A stretch of 32,455 nucleotides of DNA from a virus: the IMG/VR virus record IMGVR_UViG_3300032893_000213, positions 1 to 32,455 of that record; one strand, given 5' to 3'. The position numbers and the translations under genes were made by a program. Shown one piece after another: positions 934 through 31,804 of the stretch. The notes below the pieces were generated by a model, which searched no databases, had not been told where the DNA came from, and worked only from the letters and a program-made list of their open reading frames with translations. Each line of letters starts with the position of its first letter. The stretch's first letter is position 1.

Positions 934-1006
934 TGGTGTCTCCACCAGAATTCGAATCTGGGTCTCTCTATTGCTAGAGCGTGCTAGGCCGCTACACCAT
1001 GGAGAC
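934..1006 (-). tRNA. tRNA-Glu-like RNA without an anticodon (GCAA tetraloop in place of the anticodon loop)
   Basis: The strand-reversed sequence folds as a cloverleaf. Acceptor is GTCTCCA/TGGAGAC (7 of 7 bp), then T8-G9, D stem GTGT/GCAC with the 9-base loop AGCGGCCTA, one base, stem CTCTA/TAGAG (5 bp), variable AGAC, T stem CCAGA/TCTGG with loop TTCGAAT, discriminator A and an encoded CCA. The D arm is almost that of E. coli tRNA-Glu, including U11-A24, U13-G22 and a 4-base variable loop, which are known GluRS identity features. The middle arm has only four loop bases, GCAA (971-974), instead of seven. There is no U33 and no anticodon, so it cannot decode. Every other stem is intact, which argues against simple decay. 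A GluRS-like gene lacking the anticodon-binding domain lies at 3591-4523. Confidence 0.85.
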
Positions 1007-1026
1007 TGATTATAAAACCAATAAGT

Positions 1027-1269
1027 TTACCACAAGGCAAACCCAAAGGAATATATGAAGGTTTGAAATTTGTGTATCATTCCAGTTCTCCTTGATTTAG
1101 GTTTGAAGCCTTGACCAAAACAAACATTACAACAATATCCTCTTGGTTCTGATCCCCATCCACAGCATGACCAGCAATACCATAAGGTATGTCCTGGAAG
1201 CTGAAAAGGATCAATTATCCAATACACTTCAAGAAGAAGTAAAAGGATAACTAAAACTAAAAGGATCAT
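1027..1269 (-). CDS. Membrane-anchored cysteine-rich (zinc-finger-like) small protein
   Basis: An 80-residue protein. Residues 2-18 are a leucine/valine-rich membrane segment. Then come paired cysteines: CWSCCGWG (about 33-40) and CCNVCFGQGF (about 46-55), a CxxC-GxG pattern like the zinc fingers of DnaJ. It may bind zinc at the membrane face. The ATG overlaps the previous stop (ATGA) and is preceded by GGAGAA. It lies directly upstream of the tRNA-like gene in the same leftward transcript. The partner and role are unknown. Confidence 0.6.
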   Translation of the reverse strand: MILLVLVILLLLLEVYWIIDPFQLPGHTLWYCWSCCGWGSEPRGYCCNVCFGQGFKPKSRRTGMIHKFQTFIYSFGFALW

Positions 1270-1487
1270 TCCAGTTCTCCTTCAGGAGGATCGATAGGTT
1301 CAAGCAGATAGTCATACACAGACTCAAACTCTAAGGTGAAATCATCAGGATCAGTTAAGCGTTTCTTTTCTAACTCGTCCTGTTGTTTCAACTTCTGTTG
1401 CATCTCGTATTCCCCCCACATGATAGTTGCTCCAAAGAAAAAACACGTAATAATTAAATTACGTGTATGTATCAATAATAAAATCAA
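1266..1487 (-). CDS. Small membrane protein with acidic tail
   Basis: A 73-residue ORF. An N-terminal hydrophobic stretch (MILLLIHTRNLIITCFFFGATIMW) is followed by a glutamine/lysine-rich helix (MQQKLKQQDELEKKR) and an acidic tail ending PPEGELE. A shorter start at an internal ATG is possible. It overlaps the upstream gene by 29 bases and the next gene by four. This suggests a single-pass membrane protein with a cytoplasmic coiled tail. No family recognised. Confidence 0.5.
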   Translation of the reverse strand: MILLLIHTRNLIITCFFFGATIMWGEYEMQQKLKQQDELEKKRLTDPDDFTLEFESVYDYLLEPIDPPEGELE

Positions 1488-1644
1488 TTATATCAATAGT
1501 TGGCTTTTCTTTCTCAACCTCAGGATCGAACTCTGACATTTCTTGCCTAATGCATCTTCCTTTATTAAAGCAAGGAGAGCAAACTTGAAGGCACTTAAAG
1601 ATTGGCATATTAGTTATTTTGCATTTCATCAGGCCCTGTTTCAT
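1459..1644 (-). CDS. Cysteine-rich small protein, first gene of a leftward operon
   Basis: I chose the ATG at 1644 because GGAAGGGAGC sits just upstream; a longer in-frame start at 1683 lies too close to the -10 element. The 61-residue protein has cysteines in the pattern CKITNMPIFKCLQVCSPCFNKGRC, so metal binding or disulfides are possible, and an acidic C-terminal half ending IIDFIIDTYT. It is the first gene behind a near-consensus promoter (1674-1702) and probably heads the transcript that includes the tRNA-like RNA. Confidence 0.55.
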   Translation of the reverse strand: MKQGLMKCKITNMPIFKCLQVCSPCFNKGRCIRQEMSEFDPEVEKEKPTIDIIDFIIDTYT

Positions 1645-1673
1645 TTGCTGCTCCCTTCCTTCATTGTAATTAT

Positions 1674-1702
1674 AGTATAGCAAATTTTGAACCTTATGTC
1701 AA
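1674..1702 (-). promoter_or_regulatory. Sigma-70-type promoter, leftward
   Basis: On the minus strand: TTGACA, exactly 17 bases, TATACT. It drives the small-gene operon that includes the anticodon-less tRNA. It is one of at least seven promoters of the same design in this window. Confidence 0.8.
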
Positions 1703-1707
1703 GTTTG

Positions 1708-1906
1708 CTAAATTGTAAATGGACTGTTACAATAGACAATCCATAATAATTTTGCACCTAATAGAGAATTACATTCCCTACATGCTCGAACCTCAATGAA
1801 AGGAAATTCATTTATTAGTCCAGAAATCAAGAGTGTAACTCCTATAGGCTTGTGGTGGGATATGATCTATAGTATCACAAAATAAACCACAATAAATACA
1901 TATATT
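1708..1906 (-). pseudogene. Broken HNH endonuclease remnant (frameshifted)
   Basis: No long ORF is present, but two neighbouring minus frames read as one HNH nuclease. The first gives ICIYCG...DTIDHIPPQAY and then hits a stop after TNK. A neighbouring frame continues SGLINEFPFIEVRACRECNSLLGAKLL and stops at 1708. CxxCG, then DHIPP, then ACRECNSLLG is the hallmark of a common phage HNH family. There is no start codon, because the upstream frame runs into the endolysin gene, and the frames are out of register near the middle. It looks like a homing nuclease decaying just after the endolysin. Confidence 0.65.
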
Positions 1907-2699
1907 ACGTATTATTATATTTAACCATTGCTGCTTCGCTTAATGGTCCCCATAATCCATCTACTTGGCCAGTATAAAATCCTTCTTTTTGAAGCTCAGT
2001 CTGTAGACTTTCAATAATAGGTTTAACATTATCTTGTAGTACAGCAGGCTGTGGCTGTGGTTCAGGAACATGTACCACGGTCTGTCCTAAAATAGCACCA
2101 CCATAATCTCCTTGAACATCATCCATATCTACACTAACCCCAAATGCTGTTGTAGGAGCATGTTGATGGATTACCCATTTGTTACTTGCAAGAAAATCTT
2201 GAGTACCATATGAAGAATTTACACCCCATAACCAACATAAAGAAACTAATCCTGCATCAAGTAATGTTTGACATACAAGACCATTACCATATACACCAAT
2301 ACGATACTTTGATTGTGCTGTATCAAATACCTTCTTTACTGCCTGGAAGTATGCATAAATACCTAATGTTACTTGAGCCTTATTAGCATCCAAATCAACA
2401 GCAAAATAAATAGCTGCATTATCCGGTACATTTAATGTTTTTGCTTGAGCTAATGCTCTAGTTGCATCTTGTGTACCTTGATCTGTAGTAAAATTGCTAT
2501 AAAGGTCTCCTCTAGCTTCCCATACAAGGACAACCTTAATATTGTTATCTGAAAGTAGTTTGAATTCATCTGCATTCAAATTCTTTTCAGGATTATTACT
2601 AAGATATCTACAAATAGCTATAATAATTTGTCCTGATTGATTAATCTTACTAATTACTTGCTGTGTAACTCTAACTGCTGCATCAAAACTATTACTCAT
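1905..2699 (-). CDS. Endolysin: DUF1906 glycoside-hydrolase-like domain plus peptidoglycan-binding domain
   Basis: A 264-residue protein. Residues 3-205 match the Rv2525c/DUF1906 fold, seen in bacterial and phage lysins and related to GH25 barrels: FDAA near the start, ICRYLS at about 29-34, KVVLVWEARGD at about 55-65, AAIYFAVDLD at about 94-103, IGVYGNG at about 133-139 and VDMDDVQGDYGG at about 191-202. A Pro/Gln linker (PEPQPQP) leads to a PG_binding_1-like module, QTELQKEGFYTGQVDGLWGP. The module ends slightly short, at AMVKYNNT, where the HNH remnant begins. It probably cuts the host cell wall at lysis. It overlaps the preceding gene by four bases. The exact bond cleaved cannot be told. 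Confidence 0.8.
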   Translation of the reverse strand: MSNSFDAAVRVTQQVISKINQSGQIIIAICRYLSNNPEKNLNADEFKLLSDNNIKVVLVWEARGDLYSNFTTDQGTQDATRALAQAKTLNVPDNAAIYFAVDLDANKAQVTLGIYAYFQAVKKVFDTAQSKYRIGVYGNGLVCQTLLDAGLVSLCWLWGVNSSYGTQDFLASNKWVIHQHAPTTAFGVSVDMDDVQGDYGGAILGQTVVHVPEPQPQPAVLQDNVKPIIESLQTELQKEGFYTGQVDGLWGPLSEAAMVKYNNT

Positions 2700-2935
2700 T
2701 TTATCTCACTTTCTAAAAATTCTTTAATATATCTCTTATCAATTTCCATATAAGAGGTTTTATAAAGTATATTATTTGTATAAACTTTTACTAATTCATT
2801 AACTGTTAATGGTTTAATTAAATCCCAATCTTTATATCTTGATATTCCTTCTTTTTGATTATCTCCTCTTAAATAATAATATCTTTTAATTTTCTTTTTC
2901 CAAATAGTATTATGTCTATAATAAAAACTACTCAT
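2696..2935 (-). CDS. Small paralog family member A (unknown function)
   Basis: A 79-residue protein, MSSFYYRHNTIWKKKI..., with IKPLTVNELVKVY (about residues 40-52) and YIKEFLESE near the end. The same two blocks appear in the next gene (LKPLTIELLLKKY ... IKKFLEEI) and in 3248-3505 (LILLTLERLL ... IKMFLEEI), so these are diverged copies of one small protein. It overlaps both neighbours by four bases and is translationally coupled to the endolysin. Very lysine/tyrosine-rich, no membrane segment. Function unknown. Confidence 0.6.
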   Translation of the reverse strand: MSSFYYRHNTIWKKKIKRYYYLRGDNQKEGISRYKDWDLIKPLTVNELVKVYTNNILYKTSYMEIDKRYIKEFLESEIK

Positions 2936-3192
2936 GGATCAATTTCTTCTAAAAATTTCTTGATCATAAATTTATGAGAATTATAATAACTAGCTATAGA
3001 ATCATTATATTTATTATGATATTTTTTTAATAATAATTCTATAGTTAAAGGTTTTAAATATTTAAATTCAAATTTCTTTATATTATATAATGTTTCCTTT
3101 TTCTTATACCATTGTTTATGATAAAATCTAATTTTCTTCTTTATAAATATTTTTATAGAAAATTTAGTATCATATAAATAATATGTATTCAT
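2932..3192 (-). CDS. Small paralog family member B (unknown function)
   Basis: An 86-residue protein starting MNTYYLYDTKFSIKIF. It is strongly basic and aromatic, with LKPLTIELLLKKYH (about residues 46-59) and MIKKFLEEIDP at the C-terminus, the two blocks shared with its neighbours. An AAAGGA site sits upstream of the ATG. It is the first gene after the promoter at 3223-3251 and overlaps member A by four bases, so A, B and the endolysin form one operon. Function unknown. Confidence 0.6.
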   Translation of the reverse strand: MNTYYLYDTKFSIKIFIKKKIRFYHKQWYKKKETLYNIKKFEFKYLKPLTIELLLKKYHNKYNDSIASYYNSHKFMIKKFLEEIDP

Positions 3193-3222
3193 AATATATC
3201 CTTTCTTATAATATATTATATA

Positions 3223-3251
3223 AGTATATCATATTTTGATCAAAAAGTCAA
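3223..3251 (-). promoter_or_regulatory. Sigma-70-type promoter, leftward, upstream of the endolysin operon
   Basis: On the minus strand: TTGACT, 17 bases, TATACT. The -35 overlaps the TGA stop of the gene at 3248-3505. It separates the GluRS operon from the endolysin operon. Confidence 0.75.
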
Positions 3252-3505
3252 GCTAAAAGTATCTCTTCAAGAAACATTTTTATTCCAAGAGAATTAGATT
3301 CATTTATATCAAATGACAAATGTAATAATCTCTCTAATGTTAATAGAATTAGAAAGCTTTTATCAAATTTTTCTAAATAAACTTGAATTTTACATTTATT
3401 AGTTTTGTAATCCATATAAGTATAATAATCCTTTTTTTCTCCTTTATCAATATAAATTAGATTTCTTGTATATTTTTTTCCATTAGATAAATAATATTTT
3501 GTCAT
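3248..3505 (-). CDS. Small paralog family member C (unknown function)
   Basis: An 85-residue protein starting MTKYYLSNGKKYTRNLIYID. It has the same architecture as members A and B: a tyrosine-rich beta-like first half, then LTLERLLHLSF and a terminal IKMFLEEILLA. The ATG overlaps the TGA of the 29-residue fragment upstream, within its GAAAGAGGA ribosome site. It belongs to the GluRS operon and its stop lies in the next promoter. Confidence 0.6.
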   Translation of the reverse strand: MTKYYLSNGKKYTRNLIYIDKGEKKDYYTYMDYKTNKCKIQVYLEKFDKSFLILLTLERLLHLSFDINESNSLGIKMFLEEILLA

Positions 3506-3591
3506 TGTGGTCCTCTTTCAAGAAATTCCTTAATGTATATCTTAAAGTTTTTCCAAGGATCGAGAATTTGATCTCCTATATAATAATTCAT
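3502..3591 (-). CDS. 29-residue mini-copy of the small paralog family
   Basis: It reads MNYYIGDQILDPWKNFKIYI followed by KEFLERGPQ. The start resembles the N-terminus of its neighbours (MNTYY/MTKYY) and the end resembles their IKEFLE block, with the whole middle missing. It is therefore probably an internally deleted copy that stays translated: it overlaps the GluRS stop (TAATG) at one end and the next ATG at the other. It may serve only to keep ribosomes moving between the two genes. Confidence 0.5.
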   Translation of the reverse strand: MNYYIGDQILDPWKNFKIYIKEFLERGPQ

Positions 3592-4523
3592 TAGGGTAAT
3601 CTTTTATTAATTTCTTTTTGTCTATTATCTAATTTATCTATATCTAAAGCGCAAGGAGAGTTTTTCAATTTACCTTCAAAAAACCACTCAATTGCTTTTT
3701 GTTTTGGAATAAATTGTGAAAATAATTTATTCATCTCTTTAGCTTCTGGTCCTCTAGGAATATTTAACGACCATCCCATTCTAATTAACCAATCTAACAT
3801 TACTTCAGCAGTATATCCTTTTTCTTTATAATCCATAAGACTAGAAGCCCCGTCTCTTTTAGAGAGTTTCTTATTATTTTGTGTAATTAACCCCAAATGT
3901 GCAAACTTAGGAAATGGTTTAGGACACTGAACATTACCATAAACCTCATTTAAGGCCATCCAGATAGCTAACTGCTTAGGAGTATTAGTAATATGATCAA
4001 CTCCACGAATGATATAATTAATCCCCATAAAATAATCGTCAATAATAGATGCCAATTGGTAAGTTGGTTTTCCCAATAATTCTGGCTTCTCTTGCTGGTA
4101 CCCTCTAAGCAATATTGTTTTACGATCAATCTGCTCTTTATTAGTTTCCGTAATAGCGATATCACCAGCAATATCATCATTAAACAATTTAGGCATACTA
4201 TAAGGATACAATAATGCAACGGCCCCATTGTCTAGCTCCACAGCTTTGTTGTGAAAGAGTAGATTCTTTGCTTCACTGATATAGAGATGTTCACGTTTAC
4301 TTTGATATTCTACTTTATCTGGCTTTAAACCTAACCATTCAAGAGATTGAAATATAATATCTGTATATTCCTTCTTATTTCGTTGTATATCAGTATCATC
4401 AATACGAAGAATGAATGTACCGCCTGAAGATTTAGCTGCTAAGTAGTTGATATAGGCTGTTCTACAAGTTCCGATATGCATCATACCGGTTGGTGAAGGA
4501 GCAATTCTAGTTATATATTTCAT
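3591..4523 (-). CDS. Minimal glutamyl-tRNA synthetase-like enzyme lacking the anticodon-binding domain
   Basis: A 310-residue class I synthetase of the GluRS/GlnRS group. The HIGH-type motif is APSPTGMMHIGT (about 8-19), followed by LRIDDTD; the usual GluRS glutamate of RIEDTD is aspartate here. Next come FNDDIAGDI, the tRNA-side PTYQLASIIDDYFMGINYIIRG and a KMSKS-type KKLSKRDGA (about 225-233). The zinc-binding insert after the first Rossmann half is largely missing. After KMSKS only the stem-contact part follows, ending at about the KLDxxN element, just where the C-terminal anticodon-binding domain of a normal GluRS (about 470 residues) begins. The active site looks intact, so glutamylation of an RNA acceptor is likely. 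The natural partner is probably the anticodon-less tRNA-Glu-like RNA at 934-1006. GluQ-RS is another truncated relative, but its cysteine cluster is absent here. A GGAG site lies in the end of the preceding gene (stop/start TAATG). Confidence 0.85.
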   Translation of the reverse strand: MKYITRIAPSPTGMMHIGTCRTAYINYLAAKSSGGTFILRIDDTDIQRNKKEYTDIIFQSLEWLGLKPDKVEYQSKREHLYISEAKNLLFHNKAVELDNGAVALLYPYSMPKLFNDDIAGDIAITETNKEQIDRKTILLRGYQQEKPELLGKPTYQLASIIDDYFMGINYIIRGVDHITNTPKQLAIWMALNEVYGNVQCPKPFPKFAHLGLITQNNKKLSKRDGASSLMDYKEKGYTAEVMLDWLIRMGWSLNIPRGPEAKEMNKLFSQFIPKQKAIEWFFEGKLKNSPCALDIDKLDNRQKEINKRLP

Positions 4524-4798
4524 TAAATCAACTCCTCAAGCATCACTTTAAGAAAAGTCTTTAAGTCTTTATGTTTATTAACTTTTTGGATAAGAAGTTC
4601 TGTATTTATAAGTCTTTGTATTACACCAATGTGATTATTTTTATATTTTGCAAGTTCTATCCAACCTCTATATTCTAATCTTCTATCAAAATAAAACTCG
4701 TTATTATGTTTATATATACCACTATAATAACTTTCAAATTTCATCTCTGTATTAACTATCCAATATGTTTCTTTACCATATTCATAAAGTAGATACAT
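4523..4798 (-). CDS. Small hypothetical protein coupled to the GluRS-like gene; distant paralog of the nearby family
   Basis: I chose the ATG at 4798 because GGAG lies six bases upstream (a longer start at 4810 lacks a site). The 91-residue protein starts MYLLYEYGKETYWIV, has a tyrosine/arginine-rich middle, then RLINTELLIQKV and a terminal TFLKVMLEELI, resembling the tail of the small paralogs on the other side of GluRS. Its TAA overlaps the GluRS ATG by one base, so expression is coupled. It may assist the synthetase or its RNA; this is inference from position only. Confidence 0.6.
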   Translation of the reverse strand: MYLLYEYGKETYWIVNTEMKFESYYSGIYKHNNEFYFDRRLEYRGWIELAKYKNNHIGVIQRLINTELLIQKVNKHKDLKTFLKVMLEELI

Positions 4799-4811
4799 TA
4801 GTTTCTCCAAT

Positions 4812-10367: not shown

Positions 10368-10564
10368 AATATTCAATTGAAGAATTAGATAAAATGAGAG
10401 AATCTATTGGATGGATATTAAAATGTAAAGGATTTAGTGGTAAACCTATAGATTACTTTAAAACTAAAGAAGAATTATTAAGAACTTATATGATTAATGG
10501 TACTACAGTAGAAGAATTAAAAGCAAAAGAAATAGAAGCATTAAATAAATTAAGAGGCAAATGA
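10364..10564 (+). CDS. Small helical hypothetical protein
   Basis: 66 residues, MKYSIEELDKMRESIGWIL..., with a charged helical C-terminus (TVEELKAKEIEALNKLRGK). The ATGA overlap with the upstream peptidase gene and the overlap with the sulfotransferase start suggest a coupled trio. No family recognised. Confidence 0.5.
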   Translation: MKYSIEELDKMRESIGWILKCKGFSGKPIDYFKTKEELLRTYMINGTTVEELKAKEIEALNKLRGK

Positions 10565-11310
10565 TTAATTTCATTTCTGGTCTACCAAGATCAGGATCAA
10601 CTTTATTAGTAGCAATACTAAAACAAAATCCTAAATTCACAGTTAATATAAGTTCCCCTTTAGCTGATTTATTTATTGCCTGTGATGCAGGCTGCTCTAA
10701 AGAGAGTTCTGTATTTATCAATCAAGAACAAAGATTAGATATTCTTAGAGGATTGTTTAATAGTTATTATAAGAAAACTTCTAATATTATATTTGATACT
10801 CATAGATTCTGGAATTCAAGAATTCATATTTTATCTGAATTATTTCCTGAAGCAAAATTTATATCTTGTGTCAGAGAAGTTGGATGGGTAGCAGATTCTT
10901 TTGAAAAGCTTTATAGAAAAAATAATCAACAAGCATCAGCATTATATGGATGGACTACTGGTGGGAATGTATTCAATAGAACTAGACATTTATTAGAAAA
11001 AGATAATGTTATAGGATTTAGTCTTAATTCTACAATAGAGGCAGTCAATAGTAAACAAATTAAATTAATTGATTATGAGCTTCTATGTAGATTTCCTGAA
11101 GAAGTAATTAGAAGTTTATATGAATATATTGAAGAAGATTATTTTGGACATCACTTTAGTAGTATAGAATATAGCACAGACGAATTTGATTTAAAGCTAG
11201 GTAGTCCTGGATTACATAAAATCCAAGGACCGATTGAGTGGAAACCTAGACAAACTATTTTACCCCTTGAGCTTTTCAATGAAGCTAATCAAGGGAATTT
11301 TTGGAGATAA
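10561..11310 (+). CDS. Phage-encoded sulfotransferase
   Basis: A 249-residue protein with the PAPS-dependent sulfotransferase fold signature: FISGLPRSGSTLL at residues 4-16 is the 5'-phosphosulfate loop. The region CVREVGWVADSFEKLY (about 101-116) corresponds to the 3'-phosphate-binding segment (R, then S eight to ten residues on). It would move sulfate from PAPS to a hydroxyl or amino group. The acceptor may be a surface polysaccharide, lipid or small molecule; nothing here decides. The length is usual for the short bacterial family. As an accessory metabolic gene it may alter host surface or signalling. The ATG overlaps the preceding stop. Confidence 0.75.
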   Translation: MINFISGLPRSGSTLLVAILKQNPKFTVNISSPLADLFIACDAGCSKESSVFINQEQRLDILRGLFNSYYKKTSNIIFDTHRFWNSRIHILSELFPEAKFISCVREVGWVADSFEKLYRKNNQQASALYGWTTGGNVFNRTRHLLEKDNVIGFSLNSTIEAVNSKQIKLIDYELLCRFPEEVIRSLYEYIEEDYFGHHFSSIEYSTDEFDLKLGSPGLHKIQGPIEWKPRQTILPLELFNEANQGNFWR

Positions 11311-30196: not shown

Positions 30197-31225
30197 ATGG
30201 CATATTCTAAATATATTGATCTGGTAAATGCTCTTCGTAATAGATTTAATGAGCCTGTATTAACCACAGGAACATGGTCTTCTGTAGTAGGCTTTGATCA
30301 ATTCACTAAGGATGCCATTAATTATGCCTATCATGATATACTTAATGCCGAAATGGAGTGGCCATTTTTGCATCAAAATGCTAGTTTTCTGACTATTCCT
30401 GGTCAAAATTCTTATACAGCCTCTTTATCTGTGCCCGCTGGATTTACTAGTCCTATTGAAATTAAAGAGTGTGATTGGGATCAATTTTTAATTACTAATA
30501 ATAGAACAAGTACAACAATTGCATCAGAAATACATACTATTCCTGCTACTTCTCCTTATACTGTAGCTGTATCTCAAGCAGTAAATTGGGGATATGATTT
30601 AGGAGTTACATATTCTGGTGGTACAGCTTTCACTCCTGTAACAGGTGATCCTATTGCTGCTGGGCAATATACTATTACTCCTACTAATGGTCCTCTAGGC
30701 ACATATGTATTTAATTCTGCTGATGCAGGGCAATCAATTAAAATAAGCTATATTACTTATGTATCAGCACAAACAGCCCAAATTGAGACCCCTACAGCAT
30801 TACGTAGAATTGATTACGATTTCTGGGTTCAGAATTTTTTTGAAACAGATAGTTCTAATAATCCTTCTACATATGCTACACCAATGTTTGTATTTAAGCA
30901 GCAATTTATTGGCGGTATAGGATTATCTCCTGTACCAGATAAAGTATACAGAGTTGTTTATCAAATGTGGGTTGATGGTTCTGATTTATCAGCTACTACA
31001 GATACTCCTTTAATCCCTACACATTTCAATCAAGTAATTCTTGATGGTGCTTCTAAGTATTGTTATGAATTCAGAGAAGACCCACAAATGGCACAATTGG
31101 CAGATGCTAGATTTAAAGCTGGTATCACTCGTATGCGTATTGAATTGATTAATAGAGATTATACTATGAATGCTGGTGTAAATTGGACAAGAGGGACGGG
31201 ATATGCTTCTCCGTTTGTATTTTAA
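30197..31225 (+). CDS. Putative head-tail adaptor protein (SU10-like)
   Basis: 342 residues. The start YIDLVNALRNRFNEPVLTTGTWSSVVGFDQFTKDAINYAYHDILNAEMEWPFL matches the helical beginning of podovirus adaptors of the phiEco32/SU10 kind. A beta-rich insertion follows (about residues 65-195), then helices with IPTHFNQVILDGASKYCYEFREDPQMAQLADARFKAGI. It likely sits under the portal and connects it to the tail tube. The family call is from memory; position after capsid and decoration supports it. Confidence 0.65.
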   Translation: MAYSKYIDLVNALRNRFNEPVLTTGTWSSVVGFDQFTKDAINYAYHDILNAEMEWPFLHQNASFLTIPGQNSYTASLSVPAGFTSPIEIKECDWDQFLITNNRTSTTIASEIHTIPATSPYTVAVSQAVNWGYDLGVTYSGGTAFTPVTGDPIAAGQYTITPTNGPLGTYVFNSADAGQSIKISYITYVSAQTAQIETPTALRRIDYDFWVQNFFETDSSNNPSTYATPMFVFKQQFIGGIGLSPVPDKVYRVVYQMWVDGSDLSATTDTPLIPTHFNQVILDGASKYCYEFREDPQMAQLADARFKAGITRMRIELINRDYTMNAGVNWTRGTGYASPFVF

Positions 31226-31228
31226 ATA

Positions 31229-31804
31229 ATGGCACAAGCTTTAGTAGATGTATCACAAATTGATAATAGAATTATTGCTCAGAGAATAGATTATTTAGCT
31301 ACTCTTTTAGGTAATATTGCTGGCAATGGAACTACTACAGGAACAGGCTCAGTTGTGTTAAATAATGGTCCTATGTTATTAAATCCTGTAGTTGCAAGTA
31401 CTAATTTATTAATTGCTGGTGATCCTGGTAATACAGGGCCAAATTATGCAAATGGTCTTTTATTGCAAAATACTCATGGGGCTTCTAATTTTAAAAGCTT
31501 TATTAGTTTTAAAGATGCCACATCTGCTAGATTTCAAATGGGTATTGATCCCAATGGTGCCGGAGAACAAATTTTTTATTTAGATGATGTTACTAACACC
31601 TTAGTATTTTTTCAATATACTGCTGGTACTGGTACAGTTATTAATAGTGCTCTCAAGTTGGGATCAGCAAGTACATGGACAGCTAATGGTTCAACAGCAA
31701 TATCACTAACTAATATAGCTCCATCAGGAGCACATGCAACCGTTCAAGAATGGCTTACCATTCAAGATAATAATGGTACAACTAGATATATTCCTTGTTT
31801 TTAA
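31229..31804 (+). CDS. Virion protein sharing the N-terminal docking domain of 16203-17111
   Basis: 191 residues. LVDVSQIDNRIIAQRIDYLATLLGN resembles IVDVSHIVEPNARTAVDYLADVLAT of the other protein. The rest (ASNFKSFISFKDATSARFQMGIDPNG...) reads like a beta-type fibre or decoration module. Likely a tail or head fibre. Confidence 0.6.
   Translation: MAQALVDVSQIDNRIIAQRIDYLATLLGNIAGNGTTTGTGSVVLNNGPMLLNPVVASTNLLIAGDPGNTGPNYANGLLLQNTHGASNFKSFISFKDATSARFQMGIDPNGAGEQIFYLDDVTNTLVFFQYTAGTGTVINSALKLGSASTWTANGSTAISLTNIAPSGAHATVQEWLTIQDNNGTTRYIPCF

Follow-up and report, generated by a model that had tools for sequence, protein, structure and literature searches.

Most known uses of aminoacyl-RNA outside translation borrow ordinary tRNAs, and transfer-messenger RNA (tmRNA), charged by alanyl-tRNA synthetase (AlaRS), is an aminoacylated tRNA-like RNA without an anticodon. 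For glutamate, the closest described enzymes are bacterial glutamyl-tRNA synthetase (GluRS; GltX, TIGR00464), which has two anticodon-binding domains, and its paralogue GluQRS (YadB, TIGR03838), a protein of about 300 amino acids without the anticodon-binding domain that transfers glutamate to the anticodon base of tRNA-Asp. Here we analyse a 32,455-base virus record (IMGVR_UViG_3300032893_000213; the window, meaning this whole stretch) that carries both a tRNA-Glu-like RNA without an anticodon loop (934–1006) and a short GluRS homologue, mini-GluRS (3591–4523). A preliminary description made from the sequence had proposed the two parts; both are real, with the refinement that both genes lie on the minus strand. 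Charging without decoding is the simplest reading and fits the data, and we give an even chance to the proposal that the two form an aminoacylation pair uncoupled from decoding, supplying glutamate to another reaction. The system appears to be undescribed in the literature searched, a search that most subscription journals and preprints lay outside.

The RNA measures 73 nucleotides including its encoded CCA, and was delimited with RF00005, by folding and with our own RNA model, R1. RF00005, the Rfam tRNA family, matches positions 937–1006 at 45.1 bits (E 1.2e-8; gathering score, 29), and R1, of which the window RNA is a seed member, gives 77.3 bits. ARAGORN, run on the window, did not call the RNA at 934–1006, and neither ARAGORN nor Rfam found a tmRNA in the window. 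All stems are fully paired: the acceptor (7/7; 3′ strand TGGAGAC at 938–944, minus strand, against 1000–1006), the D stem (4/4, with U11-A24 and U13-G22) and the T stem (5/5). The fold has an energy of −24.3 kcal/mol (z = −2.30), and 4 of 200 shuffles were equally stable. Together with the RF00005 match, this bears out the tRNA-Glu hallmarks and the GCAA loop that had been noticed by eye.

In Escherichia coli tRNA-Glu, the determinants outside the anticodon are U11-A24, U13-G22:A46 and the absence of residue 47, with G1-C72 and U2-A71 as weak determinants (PMC9976931). Every one of these is in the window RNA, including A46 and the missing residue 47 in the variable loop AGAC (962–965, minus strand); a further segment of the RNA, read from the sequence and the same determinants, occupies 981–997 on the minus strand. 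Apart from its anticodon, the RNA therefore has every Glu determinant, together with the acceptor, D and T arms of tRNA-Glu. It differs in the anticodon arm (966–979, minus strand), where sequence and fold give a 5-bp stem, CTCTA/TAGAG, closed by a GCAA tetraloop of the GNRA type. This tetraloop replaces the 7-nucleotide loop, and U34, U35, C36 and A37 of decoding tRNA-Glu are all absent.

The mini-GluRS (310 amino acids, minus strand) comprises catalytic, acceptor-binding and stem-contact parts and has no anticodon-binding domains, as judged from profiles, an AF2 model and structure alignment. The sole Pfam domain matched is tRNA-synt_1c (E 6.3e-51). The protein scores 231.5 bits with the GluRS model TIGR00464 and 134.9 bits with the GluQRS model TIGR03838, below their respective cut-offs of 289.95 (curated) and 276.7. 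Residues 1–310 of the AF2 model (mean pLDDT, 92.8) align with residues 1–323 of T. thermophilus GluRS (Z 31.9) and 5–336 of M. tuberculosis GluRS (Z 32.6), the best structural matches being those to bacterial GluRS at Z about 32; GluQRS structures reach Z 25–27. Because the whole model aligns to T. thermophilus GluRS 1–323, the window protein extends as far as the point at which the anticodon-binding domains would begin.

With GltX, the mini-GluRS shares the catalytic fold, the HIGH- and KMSKS-type motifs and the Arg of IIRG. Both class I motifs are kept in the window protein, as HIGT and KLSKR (3855–3869, minus strand). Profiles, motifs and the AF2 alignment thus agree with the proposed intact class I active site and the stop where the anticodon-binding domain starts, with one refinement: the second-position Glu of the RIEDTD motif of GluRS and GluQRS is Asp in the mini-GluRS (RIDDTD; 4389–4406, minus strand). 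This Asp is invariant across the mini-GluRS clade; one of the two scan patterns held the motif as RIxDTD, and several members that the other pattern alone detected also have Asp.

No viral relatives came up when the window protein was the sole query; they were found once a two-sequence alignment of the window protein and LR745206 seeded a scan of viral contigs. The scan yielded about 40 loci with short GluRS homologues that have the same end point. In a tree of 43 sequences, 28 mini-GluRS proteins, all from phages and 252–325 amino acids long, form a single clade (support 100/100), with GluQRS separate. The family differs from GltX in lacking both anticodon-binding domains and in carrying RIDDTD rather than RIEDTD, and one branch has in addition lost much of the acceptor-binding insertion. 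The preliminary description had named a longer GluRS in relatives, with this one frameshifted, as a case against it; we looked for longer or frameshifted forms in close relatives and found none. Judged by sequence, the window protein is a member of a divergent monophyletic phage family, not a fragment. A Variovorax plasmid (L464 8702–12792) has a 263-amino-acid mini-GluRS that is cut short beside an insertion sequence (IS) element, with a tRNA gene cluster upstream.

No exact match to the core of the window RNA was found, and blastn against named phages returned a single weak stretch of tRNA-Glu. Among mini-GluRS records, those with Glu-type RNAs whose anticodon arms are non-standard are the window, G004, G013 (three), G018, G021, G025, G026, G028, G031, G055, G120 and LR745206. 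Their replacement loops include GCAA, UGCG and CUUG, and other arms extend to several tens of bases; across the relatives, arms range from 14 to 93 nucleotides. An extra hairpin in the D loop is present in the G018/G021/G031/G120 and LR745206 groups. The orthologous RNAs of G021, G031 and G120 retain the replacement stem, and their D-loop hairpin, TATTAC/GTAATA in one form and TATCAC/GTGATA in another, shows a compensatory change. Such D-loop hairpins, often with UUCG-type loops and with compensatory change between relatives, lie at L082 1010–1114, L083 1290–1394 and L086 397–491. The RNA genes of the window, G004, G013, G028 and the plasmid described below all include a CCA end, and G1-C72 and U2-A71 are kept in G004 and G013, although they were not part of the search. 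We aligned 32 model matches, ordinary tRNAs among them, by fitting them to the structure; in this alignment 98.5% of cells pair and the covariation score is 0.925, compared with 0.26 in shuffles.

A general scan for any tRNA body covered 17 mini-GluRS records and gave one match in the reversed-sequence control; it missed the window RNA, whose T stem closes with A-T. In G004, G013 and G028, the sole tRNA-like genes are Glu-type with unrelated replaced arms. Across the 17 records, 12 of 24 Glu-type bodies and 24 of the 142 remaining bodies have non-standard arms (p = 8e-4); five parses in which D-loop hairpins had led the scan astray were first reassigned by hand. The related phages show unrelated replacement arms and no normal 7-base loop at this position, which is another case that the preliminary description had set against itself. 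Two candidates in G001, a 62-kb relative, were rejected: a weak R1 match that sits in a coding stretch, and an Rfam match that resembles a tRNA-Tyr gene. G001 also has a group I intron-like match of 49.9 bits, slightly below the gathering score (L396 15997–16674).

A held-out case came from a plasmid search, which found a 310-amino-acid mini-GluRS (WP_207183840.1; 47% identity) on pVL1_2, a 128-kb replicon of Methylobacterium indicum VL1 that carries phage terminase, tail sheath and tape-measure genes. The RNA model had been fixed long before pVL1_2 was found by its mini-GluRS. Applied to pVL1_2, it picked out three Glu-type RNAs (38259–38339, 38344–38481 and 56510–56659), each ending in GCCA, with arms of about 25, 82 and 93 nucleotides; ARAGORN calls the first tRNA-Pro. 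There is no ordinary Glu-type tRNA in the 118 kb of pVL1_2 examined.

Selection had been judged a likelier cause than decay, and this is now well supported, because the truncated family is monophyletic, normal 7-base loops are absent, unrelated arms sit on a conserved Glu body, close relatives have no longer or frameshifted GluRS, and the pVL1_2 mini-GluRS came with three such RNAs. We infer that the mini-GluRS would charge glutamate onto the anticodon-less RNA, recognizing it through the acceptor stem and the augmented D helix (U11-A24, U13-G22, A46 and no residue 47) rather than through an anticodon. The glutamate-carrying RNA would probably be unusable for ordinary protein synthesis and serve some other purpose: unable to read a codon, it could be a dedicated glutamate donor.

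Relatives of the window offer candidates for the next step. Terminase and portal proteins group the window with G001, G004 and G013, and also with the HMO-2011-like phages (terminase 59% to HTVC033P). In G001, G004, G013 and G028, the mini-GluRS lies near a protein of 530–620 amino acids with a conserved SCM motif (the SCM protein), which is followed directly by a metallopeptidase of PHROG 4191. The RNA accompanies this block in G004, G013 and G028, and none was seen in G001. G026 has the mini-GluRS, the RNA, a 566-amino-acid protein and the peptidase in one row; homology of that protein to the SCM protein is suggestive only (P = 0.067), and comparison of the SCM protein with a 775-amino-acid protein of G025 was negative. 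Within 13 kb of its synthetase, pVL1_2 has repeated genes of both kinds: the SCM protein in three matches, with E from 7.5e-14 to 1.3e-5, and the peptidase in two, with E 6e-93 and 1e-91 (L463 2747–12148). The SCM protein and peptidase also occur with Glu-type RNAs and no GluRS in G103, G106 and G113. Directly behind these two genes, phages without GluRS carry paired Glu-type RNAs in which the anticodon stem has 6 bp and the loop 6 nucleotides, CCCTCA (L443–L452, including G103 31153–31312 and G106 30356–30527; L154, L178 and L202).

The SCM protein, of about 550 amino acids, would probably carry out the acceptor step, and the metallopeptidase may trim or remove the product. Searches of Pfam, PHROGs and solved structures named no function for the SCM protein. 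For its residues 203–320, nearly all of the structural matches listed are GNAT folds, with Aat (2dpt) among the weak Foldseek matches. As GNAT-like folds include known aminoacyl-tRNA transferases, transfer of glutamate by the SCM protein is a reasonable guess from the modelled fold. GNAT-like tRNA-dependent transferases such as Aat, Fem and ATE1 would likewise use aminoacyl-RNA outside the ribosome, but the SCM protein has no detectable sequence relation to them. A transferase had not been recognized in the window, which is true of the window; beside the pair in other phages, where a conserved transferase was looked for, the search produced this weak GNAT-like candidate. A tentative extension, possible but not favoured, is a self-contained phage glutamylation system that has left the genetic code behind, in which a private minimal GluRS charges private anticodon-less RNAs, the variable arm gives specificity or docking, a GNAT-like transferase moves glutamate to a protein, peptide or nucleic acid, and the metallopeptidase reverses or finishes the modification. 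Sinorhizobium phage phiM6, of the same terminase family, is annotated with an amidoligase, an ATP-grasp protein, a class-II amidotransferase, a gamma-glutamyl cyclotransferase and a gamma-glutamyl hydrolase (L462 26168–33361); the first four of these form a glutamate-conjugation gene set of another kind, which makes glutamate conjugates plausible in this phage group. No mini-GluRS was found in the isolated relatives HTVC033P, HMO-2011, CRP-1 or phiM6, nor any convincing RNA, SCM protein or peptidase in the 50 kb examined of each.

Several observations weigh against a pair dedicated to charging without decoding. Scanning by pattern for Glu-type RNAs whose arms depart from normal length in either direction gave about 100 viral records, of which only about 10 have a mini-GluRS; some of the 18-nucleotide arms retain CTC or TTC, and these may be able to decode. 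As most of about 96 viral records with non-standard Glu-type arms have no recognizable GluRS, the Glu-type RNA can exist without the mini enzyme. The association is modest by record (10 of about 97, compared with 0 of 50 records with GluRS in a matched control of short arms on another common tRNA body; p = 0.013) and by lineage (p = 0.055). Several mini-GluRS phages have ordinary tRNA-Glu or none, with ordinary Glu-type tRNAs in G002, G009, G010, G011, G014, G016, G025 and G026. The GNAT match is weak: the SCM model has a pLDDT of 55, its highest Z is 7.5 and its lowest Foldseek E value is 0.011. Phages often carry members of the peptidase family. Neither the SCM protein nor the peptidase is in the window, where they cannot be sought because the window is cut at base 1, close to the RNA.

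Nor is loss of the anticodon specific to Glu across phages; we rejected such specificity because short-arm genes on the control body are at least as numerous: tRNA-like genes with a TAGCTCA/AGAGC body and anticodon arms of 10–16 nucleotides are frequent in viral contigs (at least 120; L233–L312). Anticodon-arm loss in phage tRNA-like genes is therefore a broader phenomenon. A window-like D-arm pattern was likewise set aside, as few of the eight stretches it matched are tRNA-like. Some Glu-type genes are tandem dimers, in which two anticodon-less units of D, anticodon and T arms lie within a single acceptor stem, the first 5′ strand pairing with the second 3′ strand; in some of them a hairpin separates the two units (L104 784–923; L139 4240–4379; L146 7593–7717; L150 6047–6188). 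The proposal that the two losses fit each other thus stands for the relatives of the window and for pVL1_2, and not for most non-standard Glu-type records, which lack GluRS, for short arms on other bodies or for the mini-GluRS phages with ordinary tRNA-Glu. The pairing of RNA and synthetase is strong in the lineages of the window, G004, G013 and G028 type and of pVL1_2, but is not universal. Overall, the observation made in the preliminary description is confirmed, and its interpretation is supported in part and extended.

It is unlikely that the mini-GluRS is an anticodon-blind GluRS that keeps the phage tRNA-Glu charged for translation, the RNA being a functionless degenerate copy of tRNA-Glu: tRNAs with the ordinary 7-nucleotide loop are there to be charged in the records listed above (G014 apart), and short-arm genes with other bodies are common in phages, but the relatives of the window and pVL1_2 have no ordinary Glu-type tRNA left to charge. 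Nor does degeneration sit well with acceptor, D and T arms that stay paired while anticodon arms differ, or with the retained replacement stem and compensatory hairpin change in G021, G031 and G120. We regard as quite improbable a decoy, in which the RNA acts uncharged by binding host GluRS, EF-Tu or RNase P, or else a nuclease that targets tRNA, the mini-GluRS being incidental. The many phages that have Glu-type RNAs without normal loops and no GluRS would suit a decoy, as would the tandem dimers, which are odd for an ordinary substrate; however, an anticodon nuclease has no site in anticodon-less RNAs, the copies in the window, G004, G013, G028 and pVL1_2 have a CCA end in the gene itself, and the mini-GluRS is kept alongside the RNA in unrelated replicons.

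Two further explanations have very little probability. Were the protein an enzyme of the GluQRS type, acting on a modified base of host tRNA-Asp and unrelated to the RNA, that would account for the same domain loss, the similar size and the structural alignment. The sequence already speaks against it: the GluQRS model falls far short of its cut-off and below the GluRS score, the tree splits GluQRS from the mini clade at 100/100, and the window motif is KLSKR and not the KLSKQ of GluQRS. GluQRS is also known to act on an anticodon base, and the partner RNA here has no anticodon. It is similarly hard to credit that the RNA, once charged, takes part in the rescue or termination of translation by entering the ribosome without an anticodon. 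tmRNA, a charged anticodon-less tRNA-like domain that acts on the ribosome, is a precedent, but no mRNA-like part or tag reading frame was seen, the arms vary widely and there are several unlike RNA copies per genome. The phage RNA also differs from tmRNA in its amino acid and in having its own phage synthetase.

Elsewhere in the window, open reading frames of 79–95 amino acids that flank the mini-GluRS (2696–2935, 2932–3192, 3248–3505 and 4523–4810) are alike in composition and ends, and the two that were searched have no PHROG match. A sulfotransferase-like protein (PF13469, E 1.2e-14) is encoded at 10561–11310, and G106 has a relative of it.

If charging without decoding is correct, the pair could offer a natural orthogonal system for engineering, and would make it testable how small a part of a synthetase and of a tRNA suffices for specific charging in nature, and what purpose the charged RNA serves. 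It would represent a natural aminoacylation pair freed from decoding, conserved across phages that are unrelated and also in the phage-plasmid of a cultured Methylobacterium.

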